Source of the DNA: Anaerohalosphaera lusitana
Lineage (GTDB): Bacteria > Planctomycetota > Phycisphaerae > Sedimentisphaerales > Anaerohalosphaeraceae
Length of the DNA: 64,000 nt
NCBI RefSeq assembly: GCF_002007645.1
Contig: NZ_CP019791.1
Location: 2,418,001-2,482,000, forward strand
Direction of reading: 5' to 3'
A program made the position numbers and the translations under genes. Every line of letters starts with the position of its first letter. The first letter of the stretch is position 1. Positions 27,918 to 50,238 of the stretch are shown here, piece after piece. The notes beneath the pieces were generated by a model. The model was not told the DNA's origin. It saw only the letters and a list, made by a program, of their open reading frames with translations, and did not search any database.

Positions 27918-29583
27918 GAGACTGTGTCGCTACTGCTGTCAGTTTTAGCTTTTCTGCTGTTTCTGCGTCTCTGTCCGAGAATCGCTGATGTTTCCATTTT
28001 TCATTCGTTCATTTGGCCGCATTTGGCTGCGATTTTGTAATAGCGCAGCAGTAAGCGGCCATTTTACTACTTCGCCAGCGTGCTGATCAGCCCTTCGACA
28101 CCCAGCAGACTCATCATCCGCGCAACATTGAAACAGCTAGCCAGCAAAGATGCCTCAGCTCTGACGCCTTCAAGCCCTCGAAGCAGGAAGCTGTCGACCT
28201 TCAGGTTCCGCTTTATATGTCCGAACGGCAGCTCCACCTTCTGCTTGCGACGCTTGTAAACCTCCTGCGCCCGCGGCTGTTCATACCTCGCCTCCAGCTT
28301 CTCCTGCACATCCGCGTTGAGCAGACGGGAGACGCTTCGGCCCCGTTGCTGATCCGTACACTTGCCGAAGTGACGGCATTTTCTACATGCCGCTCCGCCT
28401 CTATAAACTTTCGCTTTTTTAGTCTTATTAGTATAGCTGTATTTTAAAACATGTCCCTCGGGACATATAAAACAATCGTTCTTTTTATCATATTCAAACT
28501 TCGATCTGTCGAACGGATTATCGTCTTTCTTCTTCTTCTCTGCCTGCTTCTTTGAAGGAACAACCACCTCGATCCCTTTTTCGTCGATCTTCTCAAGCTC
28601 ATCCACGCTTGAATAGCCCGCATCCGCACAGGCTGTCTCGCAATCATTATCCAGTGTATCATTGGCTTTGTCCACCTGATCGGCGAACTGCTTATAGTCG
28701 TGATTGTCCGATACCACATCGCTGTTGACGATCAGGCCGTTCTCGTCATCCACCGCTGATTGCACGTTATAGCTCGAATGACTGCCCTGTATGCTGTGCA
28801 TCATCTTGCAGTCAGGATCGGTCATATTGGTCGATTTACTGTCCTCTGCCTGTATTTGCTCCATTATACTTTCGACCTTCGACCGCAGTTTCTTCTGATC
28901 GCTCAGCTCCTCGTCCATCTTTATCCACGAACCCTGATTCACCTCCTTGCGGTCGACTGTCTCGCATTCCGACAGTATCTGCTTGATGCGTTTGTCGATA
29001 CTTTTTAAGCGACGTTGGCACTTTTCCTTCGTCCAGGTATTCTTATTCGAGGCGTTCGCCCGGACCTTCGTACCGTCTATGAATAATGTGTTGCCTTTTA
29101 TAAGGTCCAGCTTTATACAAAGACGGGCACACTGACGCAGAACCTTTTTTAATGCGCCTCTGTTCTTGCGTCTGAACTCAGCGATCGTTTTATGGTCCGG
29201 CTTGAGCCCGCCGGTCAGCCAGATGAACGATATATTATAATTCGCTTCACGTTCCAACTTGCGGCTGCTGCGGACGCCGTAGCTATAGCCGTACAGCAGA
29301 AGCTTGAGCATGCTCACCGGGTCGTACTGCGGACAGCCGACCTTGCCGGTGTTTATCTCGATGCCCAGCTCATCAAAATCCAGCGAGTCGAGGAATGCAT
29401 CGTATGCCCGCACCGGAGAATCGGCTGGCACATAATCGTCGATACTCTGCGGAAATAGACTCCGCTGGTAGCGATCACCATAACGATATGCCATAAAAAA
29501 CCTTTCATTCGAACCACGAATGAATTTTAGCGCCATCACAATAAAACCGCAAGATCAATCAACGAGAATTGCGACACAGTCTC
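27918..29583 (-). mobile_element. IS1182-type element nested in IS630
   Basis: 1666 bp. The ends are perfect 13-bp inverted repeats GAGACTGTGTCGC (27918-27930) and its complement (29571-29583). Both sides are flanked by ATCG (27914-27917 and 29584-29587), a 4-bp target duplication. It contains one complete transposase gene on the minus strand. The intact ends, exact duplication and unbroken gene suggest recent insertion. Confidence 0.88.
28067..29494 (-). CDS. IS1182-family transposase
   Basis: About 475 residues. N-terminal DUF772 region (RYQRSLFPQSIDDYVPADSPVRAYDAF, then PQYDPVSMLKLLLYGYSYG and RKLEREANYNISFIWLTGG), DDE catalytic core with FIDGTKVRANAS and CADAGYSSVDEL, and a C-terminal cysteine cluster (CPEGH, CRKCRHFGKC) with a final RNLKVDSFLLRGLEGVRAE block. 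The ATG at 29494 has AAAGG 7-8 nt upstream; GTG 29539 and ATG 29536 are longer alternatives. No disruption is seen, so it may be functional. The IS1182 assignment is from overall architecture. Confidence 0.88.
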   Translation of the reverse strand: MAYRYGDRYQRSLFPQSIDDYVPADSPVRAYDAFLDSLDFDELGIEINTGKVGCPQYDPVSMLKLLLYGYSYGVRSSRKLEREANYNISFIWLTGGLKPDHKTIAEFRRKNRGALKKVLRQCARLCIKLDLIKGNTLFIDGTKVRANASNKNTWTKEKCQRRLKSIDKRIKQILSECETVDRKEVNQGSWIKMDEELSDQKKLRSKVESIMEQIQAEDSKSTNMTDPDCKMMHSIQGSHSSYNVQSAVDDENGLIVNSDVVSDNHDYKQFADQVDKANDTLDNDCETACADAGYSSVDELEKIDEKGIEVVVPSKKQAEKKKKDDNPFDRSKFEYDKKNDCFICPEGHVLKYSYTNKTKKAKVYRGGAACRKCRHFGKCTDQQRGRSVSRLLNADVQEKLEARYEQPRAQEVYKRRKQKVELPFGHIKRNLKVDSFLLRGLEGVRAEASLLASCFNVARMMSLLGVEGLISTLAK

Positions 29584-30176
29584 ATCGGTCAGTGTTCCTT
29601 GCTGGCCTATTCGCACTTCGTCCTGGAACCAGATCTCAATTTTCTTTTCGGGGTTTTCTGTTCGGACTTTTTGGACAAAAAGGGGGCTTGCTCCAACCAC
29701 TGCTGCATTTTTTCCGGATCGTTCTTTCGGTGCTTAGGCCTTGGTTTTAGACATGAAAGCCCCAATCTATGCATTAGATCATAGACGCCGAAGAGCGAAT
29801 ATTTTACGCCAAATTCTCTTTCAAGAATCCGTCTTATGTCTCTGCCGCGCAGCACACATACACCACCGTCTGAATCGGTTGGTCCATCTTGAATTCGCTT
29901 GATCAACTCAGGCTCTTTTTTGCGTGGCAGTTTTGTGGGCCTGCCGCTTTGACGTTTTGGTGCGATAGCCTCAATGCCGCCATCACGGTAGAAATAACAC
30001 CATCGCTGAACGAAGTTTTTGCTGCGATCAAGTTTTGTCATGATCGCTTTTGTTTGCCATCCCTCCAATGCCAGGGCTACCACCCGATATCGATCTCGCT
30101 GCTTTGCATTGGTTTCAATTCGAGCTTTTTCTTTTAACTTTTGCAGGTCACCGTACTTGATCTCACTGATGTGCAT
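29584..30176 (-). pseudogene. IS630 transposase, N-terminal part (orfA and start of orfB)
   Basis: orfA (ATG at 30176, AAAGGAA upstream, stop at 29607) carries the helix-turn-helix region (QTKAIMTKLDRSKNFVQRWC, GRPTKLP). Around 29667-29682 it holds two possible -1 slip sites, C-TTT-TTG and C-AAA-AAG (minus strand); shifting there enters a second frame reading VQKVRTENPEKK and the catalytic WFQDEVRIGQQGTLTD. That frame is cut at 29584 by the IS1182-type insertion. IS630 relatives commonly use such -1 frameshifting to make the full transposase. Confidence 0.85.
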
Positions 30177-34826: not shown

Positions 34827-35306
34827 ATGGAAGAAAAGAAGACATTCGAAATTGTGACGCATGGGCCTAGTGAGACGATGGAAATCGGTGCGAAGATAGG
34901 TGAAAGCCTGCGGGGCGGGGAAGTGATATGCTTTGTGGGTAATCTCGGGACGGGCAAGACGCATCTTATTAAAGGTATCGCTCGCGGGCTGGGGGCCGAG
35001 GATACGGGTGTGAACAGTCCGACGTTCGTGCTGGTTAACGAATATATAGGAGAGGGCGTTCGGCTGGACGCGTATCATATAGATGCGTATCGGCTGGAAA
35101 GCGTCAAAGAGTTTGAGATGCTTGGCTTCGATGAGCTGTGCTATCCGGACAGCGTGGTTATGATCGAGTGGGCGGACAAGGTTGAGAGCTATCTGGAGGG
35201 CCTGGATTACGTGGAAGCCAGGCTTGAGCATGAGGGAGAGAGTGAGCGTAAAATTATTTTGAAGAATCTTCCCGGCTATTTGTATGAGGTACTGACGGCA
35301 GAATAA
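34827..35306 (+). CDS. tsaE: tRNA threonylcarbamoyladenosine biosynthesis ATPase TsaE
   Basis: About 159 residues. P-loop GNLGTGKTHLIKGIARGLG, then NSPTFVLVNEY, the DAYRL motif and VMIEWADKVESYL, all as in TsaE, which supports TsaB/TsaD in making t6A at tRNA position 37. The start is set at the ATG at 34827; the longer frame to 34725 would run inside thiL. Last gene before a strong terminator. Confidence 0.93.
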   Translation: MEEKKTFEIVTHGPSETMEIGAKIGESLRGGEVICFVGNLGTGKTHLIKGIARGLGAEDTGVNSPTFVLVNEYIGEGVRLDAYHIDAYRLESVKEFEMLGFDELCYPDSVVMIEWADKVESYLEGLDYVEARLEHEGESERKIILKNLPGYLYEVLTAE

Positions 35307-35387
35307 CTGATAGCTGACTGCCAGGGGCAGACTTATCGGTCCTTGCTGCTGCAATGCCAAATAAAACTGAATAGAAGCAAAAAATTG

Positions 35388-35418
35388 ACGCTCGTGCATT
35401 TGGCACGGGCGTTTTTTA
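35388..35418 (+). terminator. Rho-independent terminator after tsaE
   Basis: ACGCTCGTGC pairs with GCACGGGCGT (one G-U pair) and is followed by a run of T. It separates the argH-thiL-tsaE unit from the pilin leader. Confidence 0.88.
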
Positions 35419-35470
35419 TTTCTTATGTTTTGTGTGGTTCAAGTTTGATCATTGGAAACTAAATAATCCT

Positions 35471-35701
35471 GCATGGCGGGGAGCTCGGAAGGGCAGCCGG
35501 CAGTCACCGCAAAGAAAAGTTTGAATACCTGTTGCGAAGCTGACGCCGGTCGGAAGAGTTACCCGATTATCAGATAAATAGCCATGCCTTCAAGCCAGCT
35601 GGCAAAGAGGGCCGTCTTAATGATACTCCGGGGCGAAACCCCGAGCGAGGGACTGATGTCTCCTTCGGCCGGAAAACCCAGCTTTGTGAGAAGAGCATGG
35701 C
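35471..35701 (+). ncRNA. Structured leader RNA upstream of the pseudopilin operon (candidate riboswitch, class unknown)
   Basis: Between the terminator at 35388 and the first pilin ATG at 35829 lie two well-paired domains. Domain 1: GGGGAGCTC (35478) with GAGTTACCC (35556), CCGGC/GCCGG (35497, 35545), GTCA/TGAC (35503, 35541), CGCAA/TTGCG (35508, 35532). Domain 2: GCCATGCCTTC (35581) with GAAG-A-GCATGGC (35690), AGCTGG/CCAGCT (35597, 35778 minus 100 i.e. 35678), GGCCG/CGGCC (35610, 35666), and a GGGG/CCCC hairpin with loop CGAAA near 35630. GCATGGC also occurs at 35471-35477, so GCCATGC (35581-35587) can pair with either side, an exclusive choice. It was not matched to a known riboswitch; no intrinsic terminator follows, so any control might act on translation or RNA stability. 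Confidence 0.5.
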
Positions 35702-35828
35702 AGACGAGAGTGGAAAGTATCGGCAAAATTCAAGCATTAGATTTGAGTGGTTCAAATCAAAACAAGAAAAGTAAAAAGTAACGAGAGATAATGATCGAGT
35801 TCGATCGAAAAGAAAAAGGGAGAACATT

Positions 35829-36254
35829 ATGAGAGCTAGAAAAGGTTTTACACTGGTAGAAATTCTGATCGTTGTAGTTATTCTGGGTATCCTGGCAGCA
35901 ATCGTCATTCCTCAGTTCAGTCAGGCAAGTTCTGATGCAAAGCTTTCGAGTCTGAGAAGTAACCTCCAGACGATGAGGTCGCAGATTGCTTTGTACAAAG
36001 TTCAGAATAGTGACAATCTGCCCCCTGCAGATACACTGGCAAATTTCGAAGGTGCAATGTGCCCTGAATATCTGCAGTCAGTGCCCAACAATCCTTTTAC
36101 AGGTGGCAATACTATTACTCAAGGTGATAATACAGGTTTAGCCGGTGCTCCTGGAGATGGCAGCAGTGACTGGTATCTGAATACAACTGAAGGTATTGTT
36201 TATGCAAATGATACTGGCACACTTGATGATGGCACTGCCCATTCAACCTTCTAA
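35829..36254 (+). CDS. Type II secretion GspG-like / type IV pilin-like major pseudopilin (paralogue 1)
   Basis: 141 residues. Class III signal RARKG|FTLVEILIVVVILGILAAIVIP with prepilin peptidase site after Gly and Glu at +5, then an amphipathic helix (SSDAKLSSLRSNLQTMRSQIALYKVQN) and a short globular domain with a conserved VPNNPFTGG turn. The +1 Phe and the short C-terminal domain fit GspG/PulG. AAAGGGAG precedes the ATG. It is followed directly by a terminator and preceded by a long RNA leader, so it may be the most abundant product of the locus, as for a major pilin. Confidence 0.88.
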   Translation: MRARKGFTLVEILIVVVILGILAAIVIPQFSQASSDAKLSSLRSNLQTMRSQIALYKVQNSDNLPPADTLANFEGAMCPEYLQSVPNNPFTGGNTITQGDNTGLAGAPGDGSSDWYLNTTEGIVYANDTGTLDDGTAHSTF

Positions 36255-36277: not shown

Positions 36278-36319
36278 GAAAGCTGGTCGGGTCCGGGGGG
36301 ACTGGCCAGCTTTCTTTTT
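36278..36319 (+). terminator. Terminator after the first pseudopilin
   Basis: GAAAGCTGG pairs with CCAGCTTTC around a G-rich loop, followed by TTTTTG. Likely makes the first pilin message more abundant than the downstream genes. The rest of the 36255-36493 spacer shows nothing else certain. Confidence 0.8.
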
Positions 36320-36493
36320 GTCTATACATAAATTACCGAAACTGTGTGGATTTCGGGTTCGGTAAGTTAAACTCCACTTTCAGATGCCCGATGTATTGAT
36401 GCAGGATTATTGTGAGCTGCCTTGACAGGCCGCTTGTTAGTCTCGTCAGCGTTGCTGATGAAGTAAAGCGATTAGTTCTTGTGAGAGAGAATT

Positions 36494-48567: not shown

Positions 48568-50238
48568 ATGCCTGAGACAATCACAAAAACTCTGGCCGGT
48601 TCACAGCTCGAACACCTTACCAAACTCAAGCAGGGTGTCGAGCCCTTAGGCGCGCACGTCGCTTTGTTTGACCAGCACGGAAGTTGTCTGTACTCGTCAC
48701 AGTGCCGCGATGAAGCGGAGCAAATAGAAAAAATTAAGTATTGTGTCGACAAGACGCTTGAGGTTCAAAGTGATAGAGTGTGCGAATTTACTGAGTATCT
48801 GGGAACGCTCAGCAGCAGAGTCAATCTGGACGGCCAGCAAAACGGTGTTCTTATAGTAGATGCACAGGATTATATTGACAGACATAAGCATAAGACTGCA
48901 GCATTCTGTCATGAGCATGGCCTTGAGCCCACTCAATGCGAGCAGATCTTCGATATGTGGGACGGCACGAAGATAATACTAGGCGAGATGCTCCGGTCAG
49001 CAGCCGAAAGCATGGAAAGTGCTTCCCGTAATGATCAGCAGATCGAAATCGTCAGTACTGAGCTGGCTCAGACGTACGAGGAATTGGTGCTTCTCTACAA
49101 TATGAGCACCAACATGAAGGTTACCCAGTCAAACGCCACTTATCTGCAGATGGCCTGTGATCAGGTTACGCAGATGGTTGACGTGGAGGGAATAGCCGTA
49201 TTCATGGAGAAATCGGAAGGATTCACGAAGAGCTTCTGTCTGACTGCGGGCTCGGGCGTGGTAATGATCGACCAGGCACTGGCTGATATTGTCCAGGCCA
49301 GGCTGTCCGAAGAATTGAGAAGGGGTCAGGAAGCGCTGCTGGACAGTGATATAGACTCACCGTTCTCATATGACTGGCCCGAGAGCCTGAAGAATATTAT
49401 TGCTGTCCCGCTGCAGAACAGCGAACGCATGATCGGTTTTATGGTCGCTACCAACATTATAAACAAAAGCGATTTCGACAGCAACGAGGTCAAACTCTTC
49501 AATTCCGTTGCAAATCAGTGTGCGGTTTTCATTGACAACGGCAGACTGTTCGGCGACCTCAAGGAGCTCTTCATGGGAGCCCTGAAGGCACTGACGAATA
49601 GTATCGATGCGAAGGATCAGTACACCCGAGGCCATTCGGAAAGGGTCGCATTCATTTCCCGTTGGATCGCGGAGAGGCTGACTGAGAAAAAAGGTCTTAG
49701 CCAGGCTGAGATCGACAAGATATATCTGGCTGGCCTGCTCCATGACATCGGTAAAATTGGTATCGATGAAAAGGTGCTTCGTAAGAACAAGGCCCTGACT
49801 GATTCAGAGAGGGGCCAGATCATGTCGCATCCTCGGATCGGCTCGATGATACTGGCAGACATTAAGCAGATGAAGGACATTGTCCAGGGCGTTCTCTGCC
49901 ATCACGAACGATATGACGGAAAAGGCTACCCCGAGGGCCTGGCCGGTGAAAACGTACCGCTCATGGGGCGCATAATCAGCGTTGCGGACAGCTTCGATGC
50001 AATGACCTCCAAACGTGTATACCGCGATGCGATGGGGCTTGAAAAGGCATTATCCGAGATCGAAAAGGGCAGCGGCACTCAGTTCGACGCGGACGTTGTA
50101 GAAGCATTCATAAATAGCGACATAAGACAATTGTGGCGAGTCATTCAGGACGGCTACCAGGACGGATTTATCGAGGCCTGGGATTATGACAGCTTCCTTG
50201 AGTATGGTACTCGTGCGGTAGGAACATTGCTGCGATGA
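48568..50238 (+). CDS. GAF and HD-GYP domain protein (putative cyclic di-GMP phosphodiesterase)
   Basis: 556 residues. N-terminal region with a Cys/His-containing segment (about 20-130), GAF domain about 185-335 (LVLLYNMSTNMKV ... NSVANQCAVFIDNGRLF) and HD-GYP domain about 345-520: HSERVA, LLHDIGKIGIDEKVLRK, MSHPRIG, CHHERYDGKGYPEGLAGE and DSFDAMTS. All HD-GYP metal and substrate motifs are intact, so c-di-GMP hydrolysis is expected from family knowledge. Its stop overlaps the STAS gene start by 4 bp. Confidence 0.9.
   Translation: MPETITKTLAGSQLEHLTKLKQGVEPLGAHVALFDQHGSCLYSSQCRDEAEQIEKIKYCVDKTLEVQSDRVCEFTEYLGTLSSRVNLDGQQNGVLIVDAQDYIDRHKHKTAAFCHEHGLEPTQCEQIFDMWDGTKIILGEMLRSAAESMESASRNDQQIEIVSTELAQTYEELVLLYNMSTNMKVTQSNATYLQMACDQVTQMVDVEGIAVFMEKSEGFTKSFCLTAGSGVVMIDQALADIVQARLSEELRRGQEALLDSDIDSPFSYDWPESLKNIIAVPLQNSERMIGFMVATNIINKSDFDSNEVKLFNSVANQCAVFIDNGRLFGDLKELFMGALKALTNSIDAKDQYTRGHSERVAFISRWIAERLTEKKGLSQAEIDKIYLAGLLHDIGKIGIDEKVLRKNKALTDSERGQIMSHPRIGSMILADIKQMKDIVQGVLCHHERYDGKGYPEGLAGENVPLMGRIISVADSFDAMTSKRVYRDAMGLEKALSEIEKGSGTQFDADVVEAFINSDIRQLWRVIQDGYQDGFIEAWDYDSFLEYGTRAVGTLLR

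Follow-up and report, generated by a model that had tools for sequence, protein, structure and literature searches.

A conserved three-way-junction RNA and a boxA-like element in the leader of a pilin operon of Anaerohalosphaera lusitana and its family

Processive antitermination by structured RNA is represented by the EAR and put RNAs, boxA elements are known from the literature at CRISPR arrays, and pilin genes are classic targets of c-di-GMP riboswitches. In the E. coli rrn operons, boxA acts mainly on Rho-dependent termination (cf. the excerpt of PMC4807359). For protein genes of gamma-proteobacteria, the excerpted text of PMC5725501 counts 36 gene functions with a boxA in front in one genus or more, most commonly suhB, and pilin operons are not among the boxA genes named in that excerpt. 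Among the matches listed, the open-licence PMC literature showed neither boxA at pilin operons nor the leader RNA described here.

The window, that is, the whole 64-kb stretch of Anaerohalosphaera lusitana DNA that was analysed, carries an operon for TsaE, N_methyl pilins, PilM, PilN, PilO, a secretin, a TPR protein, a histidine kinase, a GAF-HD (HD-GYP-like) protein, T2SSE and T2SSF. The HD-GYP protein that the preliminary description placed at this locus is encoded at 48568-50238 and is of HD-GYP type, with GAF and HD_5 domains. Pilin homologues were detected in 57 of 59 genomes, the window genome included. The reading preferred here, with a probability of about one half, is that of an rRNA-style boxA/Nus-type antitermination leader placed on a pilin/type II secretion-like operon and combined with a new structured RNA. 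The parts of the locus are a promoter, a boxA in most relatives, a covarying junction RNA, a first pilin gene and a terminator-like hairpin. Their positions in the window are as follows:

35400-35429, plus strand: sigma-70-like promoter TTGGCA-18-TATGTT, from a consensus scan
35445-35465, plus strand: degenerate boxA-like element TTGATCATTGGAAACTAAATA, from the rRNA-leader boxA matrix
35467-35580, plus strand: domain 1 (35471-35580 within it), an insertion-like spacer of modest structure, not seen in relatives
35581-35701, plus strand: domain 2, whose closing helix 35581-35591/35690-35701 surrounds the core
35597-35602/35678-35683, plus strand: helix P1a, from the predicted fold of the window
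35610-35670, plus strand: three-way-junction core, from covariance models R1 and R2
35610-35614/35666-35670, plus strand: core helix P1b, GGCCG/CGGCC
35615-35625, plus strand: core junction strand J1/2
35626-35633/35639-35645, plus strand: core helix P2
35646-35648, plus strand: core junction strand J2/3, CGA
35649-35653/35658-35662, plus strand: core helix P3, GGGAC/GUCUC
35663-35665, plus strand: core junction strand J3/1
35740-35758, plus strand: hairpin GATTTGA-GTGGT-TCAAATC, from the leader comparison
35829-36254, plus strand: first pilin-like gene, N_methyl (Pfam PF07963), GFTLVEILIVVVILGILAAIVIPQFS
36278-36322, plus strand: intrinsic-terminator-like hairpin GAAAGCTGG...CCAGCTTTC followed by TTTTTGTC, located behind the first pilin gene and ahead of the remaining genes

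Of the two structured domains proposed in the preliminary description, the second is borne out by both folding and covariation, whereas the first is not. The predicted fold of 35578-35703, covering domain 2, has a z value of -3.89, with none of 200 shuffles equally good; the fold of 35466-35580, covering domain 1, reaches only -1.41, and 17 of 200 shuffles match it. Read from the leaders of relatives, the common core is CCGU-nnUAAnGnUA-CUUYG..CGAAG-CGA-AGAAC..GUUCU-CU-ACGG, and its counterpart in the window is 35610-35670. Covariance models of this core were built from 6 sequences (R1) and from 13 (R2). A MAFFT alignment of the 6, made without fitting to the structure, shows two-sided changes at 10 of 23 pairs and has 90.6% of its cells paired; neither value is reached by any of 500 shuffles, and further pair types do not rise above the shuffles (219/500). 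RNAalifold on this alignment recovers the helices of the core and adds one P3 pair, and 11 of the resulting 24 pairs show two-sided changes. The model-fitted alignment of the 13 sequences raises this count to 17 of 23 pairs, with 90.8% of the cells paired (0/500 shuffles); the compensatory changes that had been proposed as a check on related leaders are therefore present in domain 2. Bearing on P1a, helix 1 of the models shows two-sided changes at all 8 of its pairs among the 13 sequences, the window itself fitting poorly there. In a tree-keeping covariation test of our own design, the top four of 4049 column pairs are predicted pairs; with 13 sequences no single pair attains E < 0.05, and E < 1 is found for four predicted and two unpredicted pairs. 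Collectively, these data support a structured and evolutionarily conserved RNA, without an Rfam family, in the leader before the pseudopilin operon.

Domain 1 behaves differently. BLASTN with 35460-35720 against 59 genomes, its own included, hit the window itself and otherwise only 25 nt in G005, a match that resembles coding sequence and is taken as chance. In the leaders of relatives, boxA is joined to P1 by a short or unrelated spacer. Domain 1, which folds little better than shuffles and has no counterpart in these leaders, thus drops out of the conserved element to which it had been assigned; a conserved aptamer at this place is rejected for want of any relative in the BLASTN search, and the domain appears to be a spacer inserted in the window genome.

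The core was searched for in the groups that contain the window genome, with 39 genomes at the level of the family, 161 of the order and 397 of the class; a GTDB-based collection, which may omit the window genome's own record, was scanned as well. R2 finds the core in 14 of the 39 family genomes, with one strong match each and 12 of 16 genera represented. Thirteen of these matches have E of 3.7e-10 or better and are the sequences from which R2 was built; the fourteenth, G060, has E of 0.0097. In all 14 the core lies 104-188 nt upstream of the pilin motif, and five of the genomes hold a second, weak match (E 0.43-3.96). The R1 search of the order is clear in 10 of 161 genomes (E 0.0095 or better), six of them being the R1 seeds. 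Outside the family, R1 gives weak matches in two of the 161 genomes (G145, E 0.25; G153, E 0.23) and R2 in 14 genomes of the class set of 397 (E 0.0019-0.157). All of these loci lack the pilin motif and the matches, near chance for the number of genomes searched, were set aside. The pattern scan of the GTDB-based collection yields 33 matches. Six of them, above 60 bits and on Planctomycetota contigs, lie 150-162 nt from the pilin motif and add no member, because around the core they agree with six family genomes letter for letter; the other 27 reach at most 23.3 bits, at loci without the motif. No relative of the core outside the family thus emerged from the order, class and GTDB-based searches. 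Descent of the core from an rRNA leader is likewise ruled against, since R2 has no match in 15 rRNA loci.

Rfam offers no name for this RNA. At gathering score the whole window contains one tRNA and nothing else, so the existing family that the preliminary description had asked about does not cover the leader. With E up to 10, eight weak matches appear in 35300-35900; they are confined to the terminator region, ahead of 35467, and none lies over either domain. In 20 loci of relatives, nothing reaches gathering score. The core of the leader is a real structured RNA family missing from Rfam. Elsewhere, locus L176 of a family genome shows an Acido-Lenti-1 RNA match at 2683-2727 (Rfam RF01687, 44 bits).

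Upstream of the folded RNA, the promoter and the boxA-like element deserve to be considered together. The strong terminator said to precede the leader is found as a terminator-like hairpin at 35387-35413, and its 3' arm carries the -35 box of the promoter, which relatives share. A TTG-type -35 box stands at a like distance in 22 of 23 family leaders chosen by their TTCTTA-like -10 block, the exception being G007. Shortly past the promoter, most pilin leaders of the family carry a GTTCTTTGACAAGCGAATA-like sequence, and the rRNA leader of the window genome has GATCTTTGAAAAGTTAACA before 16S; this boxA sequence is common to the pilin leaders and the rRNA leaders of the same family genomes. The matrix used to score it was drawn from 17 rRNA-leader sites of family genomes and is independent of the pilin leaders; three of 20 rRNA leaders (G028, G025, G011) were left out, their boxA ending in TTCATA instead of AACA and escaping the extraction pattern. 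From 25 pilin leaders given, including G017 without a usable pilin start and G060 without a promoter match, 24 were obtained with scores and 23 with offsets, counted from a TTCTTA-like motif chosen by pattern. The best site falls 21-38 nt past the start of this motif in 19 of 23 leaders, and a score above 10 occurs within 24-51 nt of it in 14 of 23. G060 scores 17.2 and G007 has a low-scoring site only; a convincing site is absent from G014, G005, G008, G018 and G009 in the matrix scan of 24 leaders.

In the window, the site starts 25 nt downstream of the first base of the TTCTTA motif and 16 nt downstream of the last base of the -10 box, and scores 7.0 versus 27.8-35.1 for the rRNA sites. It is the best site of the 409-nt leader (5/200 shuffles are as good) and the second best of 127,960 window positions, one other place scoring 7.1. 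Taking into account that the best scores in 14 leaders of other families range from -7.3 to 8.6, a value of 7.0 alone is no proof, and it is the position that speaks for the window site; the boxA of this pilin leader appears partly decayed. The core is absent from 10 of the 24 scanned leaders, eight of which have a good boxA. The two elements are separable, and the retention of boxA in these eight suggests that it is the older and more general part.

A strict boxA pattern matches 43 times in the 39 family genomes versus twice for the reversed control. Fifteen matches lie before 16S, two before 23S, five before pilin genes and two before CRISPR-like arrays, and 19 are unassigned; the 23S assignments were made by Rfam, and two matches at contig ends were placed by sequence (G033, with 16S) and by promoter (G034 C87, with the pilin group). 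The window genome has two strict matches, one before 16S and one before 23S, which is the E. coli layout according to the excerpt of PMC10250234. The matches at CRISPR-like arrays (L185 and L202, in G027 and G001) stand about 120 nt ahead of them, and some of the 19 others were seen by eye near phage- or transposase-like genes (L187, L196, L198).

Behind the first pilin gene, the terminator-like element consists of a hairpin at 36278-36314 and a T-run. Of the 23 family genomes that have sequence at this place (25 given, G030 and G015 having no downstream sequence), 22 show such a hairpin, as do 9 of 10 genomes from other families (11 given, G052 yielding no pilin start), by a loose test that 96 of 798 background tiles also pass. 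The arm sequence is partly conserved (AGCYGRYCGG..), other families of the order included. Being found across the order, the terminator is independent of boxA or core; it is wider than the family, while the core is found in the family alone. Within the leader, the hairpin at 35740-35758 is shared by 8 of the 24 family leaders compared (window included) and by three leaders of another family. Ten aligned sequences show two-sided changes at 4 of 7 pairs, and only these changes carry weight, since the sequences were selected as hairpins. In the pilin leaders of family f5 (L041, L042, L030, L043), a short hairpin running into the ribosome-binding site, e.g. GTGCCTTAAGGGCACCGGAGG, is recognisable by eye and sets the leader design of this sister family apart. 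Upstream of the locus, translations inspected by eye indicate transposase-like ORFs of 490 aa and 189 aa at 28067-30176.

Several other functions may be envisaged for this leader. The preliminary description saw a two-state switch in which 35581-35587 chooses between two copies of GCATGGC. The heptamers are located where it placed them (GCATGGC at 35471-35477 and 35695-35701, GCCATGC at 35581-35587) and are perfectly complementary. In the predicted fold of the leader 35437-35860, however, the 35471/35581 helix has a pairing probability of 0.000 and the 35581-35587/35695-35701 helix one of at least 0.998, so that the supposedly mutually exclusive helices hardly compete. The first can be imposed only at a cost of 11.8 kcal/mol in minimum energy, or 10.2 in ensemble energy; it becomes about half populated (0.45-0.50) only in transcripts cut at 35590-35600, where it may exist as a passing co-transcriptional state. 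In the 64-kb window there are 11 cases, some of them overlapping, of heptamers arranged as X..rc(X)..X within 240 nt; 20 dinucleotide shuffles contain 5.3 on average (range 2-11). Because they are common window-wide, the three copies are no sign of design. On these energies and this commonness a switch by partner choice is rejected, domain 1 is not seen in the leaders of relatives, and the two-state switch is considered extremely improbable. A riboswitch, with the three-way junction binding a small molecule such as a cyclic dinucleotide and controlling the pilin gene, is unlikely, although it finds some favour in the conserved nucleotides around the junction. Covarying stems and a conserved junction are present but not specific to riboswitches, no known Rfam class is matched at gathering score, and the core showed no recognisable terminator or SD-blocking partner. 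How open the SD is predicted to be differs among the leaders without pattern, giving no consistent sequestration, and with the "competing" helices not competing, the full window leader is left without a competing structure. The sole argument for a nucleotide second messenger as ligand was a gene of HD-GYP type lying some 12 kb further downstream; the analogy brought no evidence for a ligand.

A further alternative regards the leader as an element of a strongly expressed pilin transcript that binds a protein or stabilises the mRNA, working through translation control or RNase protection, with boxA only keeping Rho off. This is conceivable, though we would not favour it. The sequence of P3 (GAAC/GUUC) and the junction strands are strongly conserved in an otherwise variable leader, no expression platform is seen next to the core, and a high pilin share is already explained by the terminator after the first gene. 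On its own, however, this explanation fails to account for boxA in core-less leaders, and it names no candidate protein. In the antitermination reading, NusB/S10 and other Nus factors would load at boxA, and the folded RNA would serve the Nus complex or act on RNA polymerase itself. Transcription would thereby pass the long untranslated leader, and perhaps a controlled share of it would also pass the terminator behind the first pilin gene. Since rrn boxA is mainly Rho-directed, the most doubtful of these steps is passage through an intrinsic terminator. The second NusG match found in many family genomes, the window genome included, gives no support to a NusG paralog as a required partner, since three core-bearing genomes (G013, G030 and G008; 99, 98 and 93% complete) show a single NusG match each. 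In the window genome, this second NusG-family match, additional to the main one, lies at G000:C1:3050941-3051177 and is probably LoaP/RfaH-like.

Only tentatively can the proposal be extended to a new class of processive antitermination, in which an rRNA-type boxA and a three-way-junction RNA would set the transcription of a pilus/secretion operon past the terminator of its first pilin gene, in one Phycisphaerae-like family of Planctomycetota. If true, boxA antitermination would reach beyond rRNA to a pilin/secretion operon, and this outside Proteobacteria; boxA would have a structured RNA partner open to mutation and probing, and one could ask by what means a bacterium with a single promoter balances major pilin against assembly machinery. 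Whatever the mechanism, the analysis defines an RNA family absent from Rfam.

Among the known systems, GEMM/c-di-GMP riboswitches often precede pilin genes, as does the window leader, but no such match appears in 35300-35900 at E up to 10. With EAR and put RNAs there is a possible likeness in mode of action, namely a folded RNA near the operon start that would help polymerase pass later terminators; at gathering score, Rfam gives no match for the leader. The E. coli rrn boxA/Nus system is alike in having a boxA-type sequence soon past the promoter, followed by untranslated folded RNA, and unlike in that the present boxA stands on a pilin operon and is degenerate in the window genome. As far as the excerpt of PMC5725501 goes, the gamma-proteobacterial boxA elements are also alike in lying within an mRNA 5' UTR; the search there was limited to gamma-proteobacteria and to positions no more than 50 bp from the start codon, and for suhB the element is repressive. 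The pilin-leader boxA, by contrast, is separated from its start codon by a long distance (about 364 nt in the window) that includes a structured RNA.
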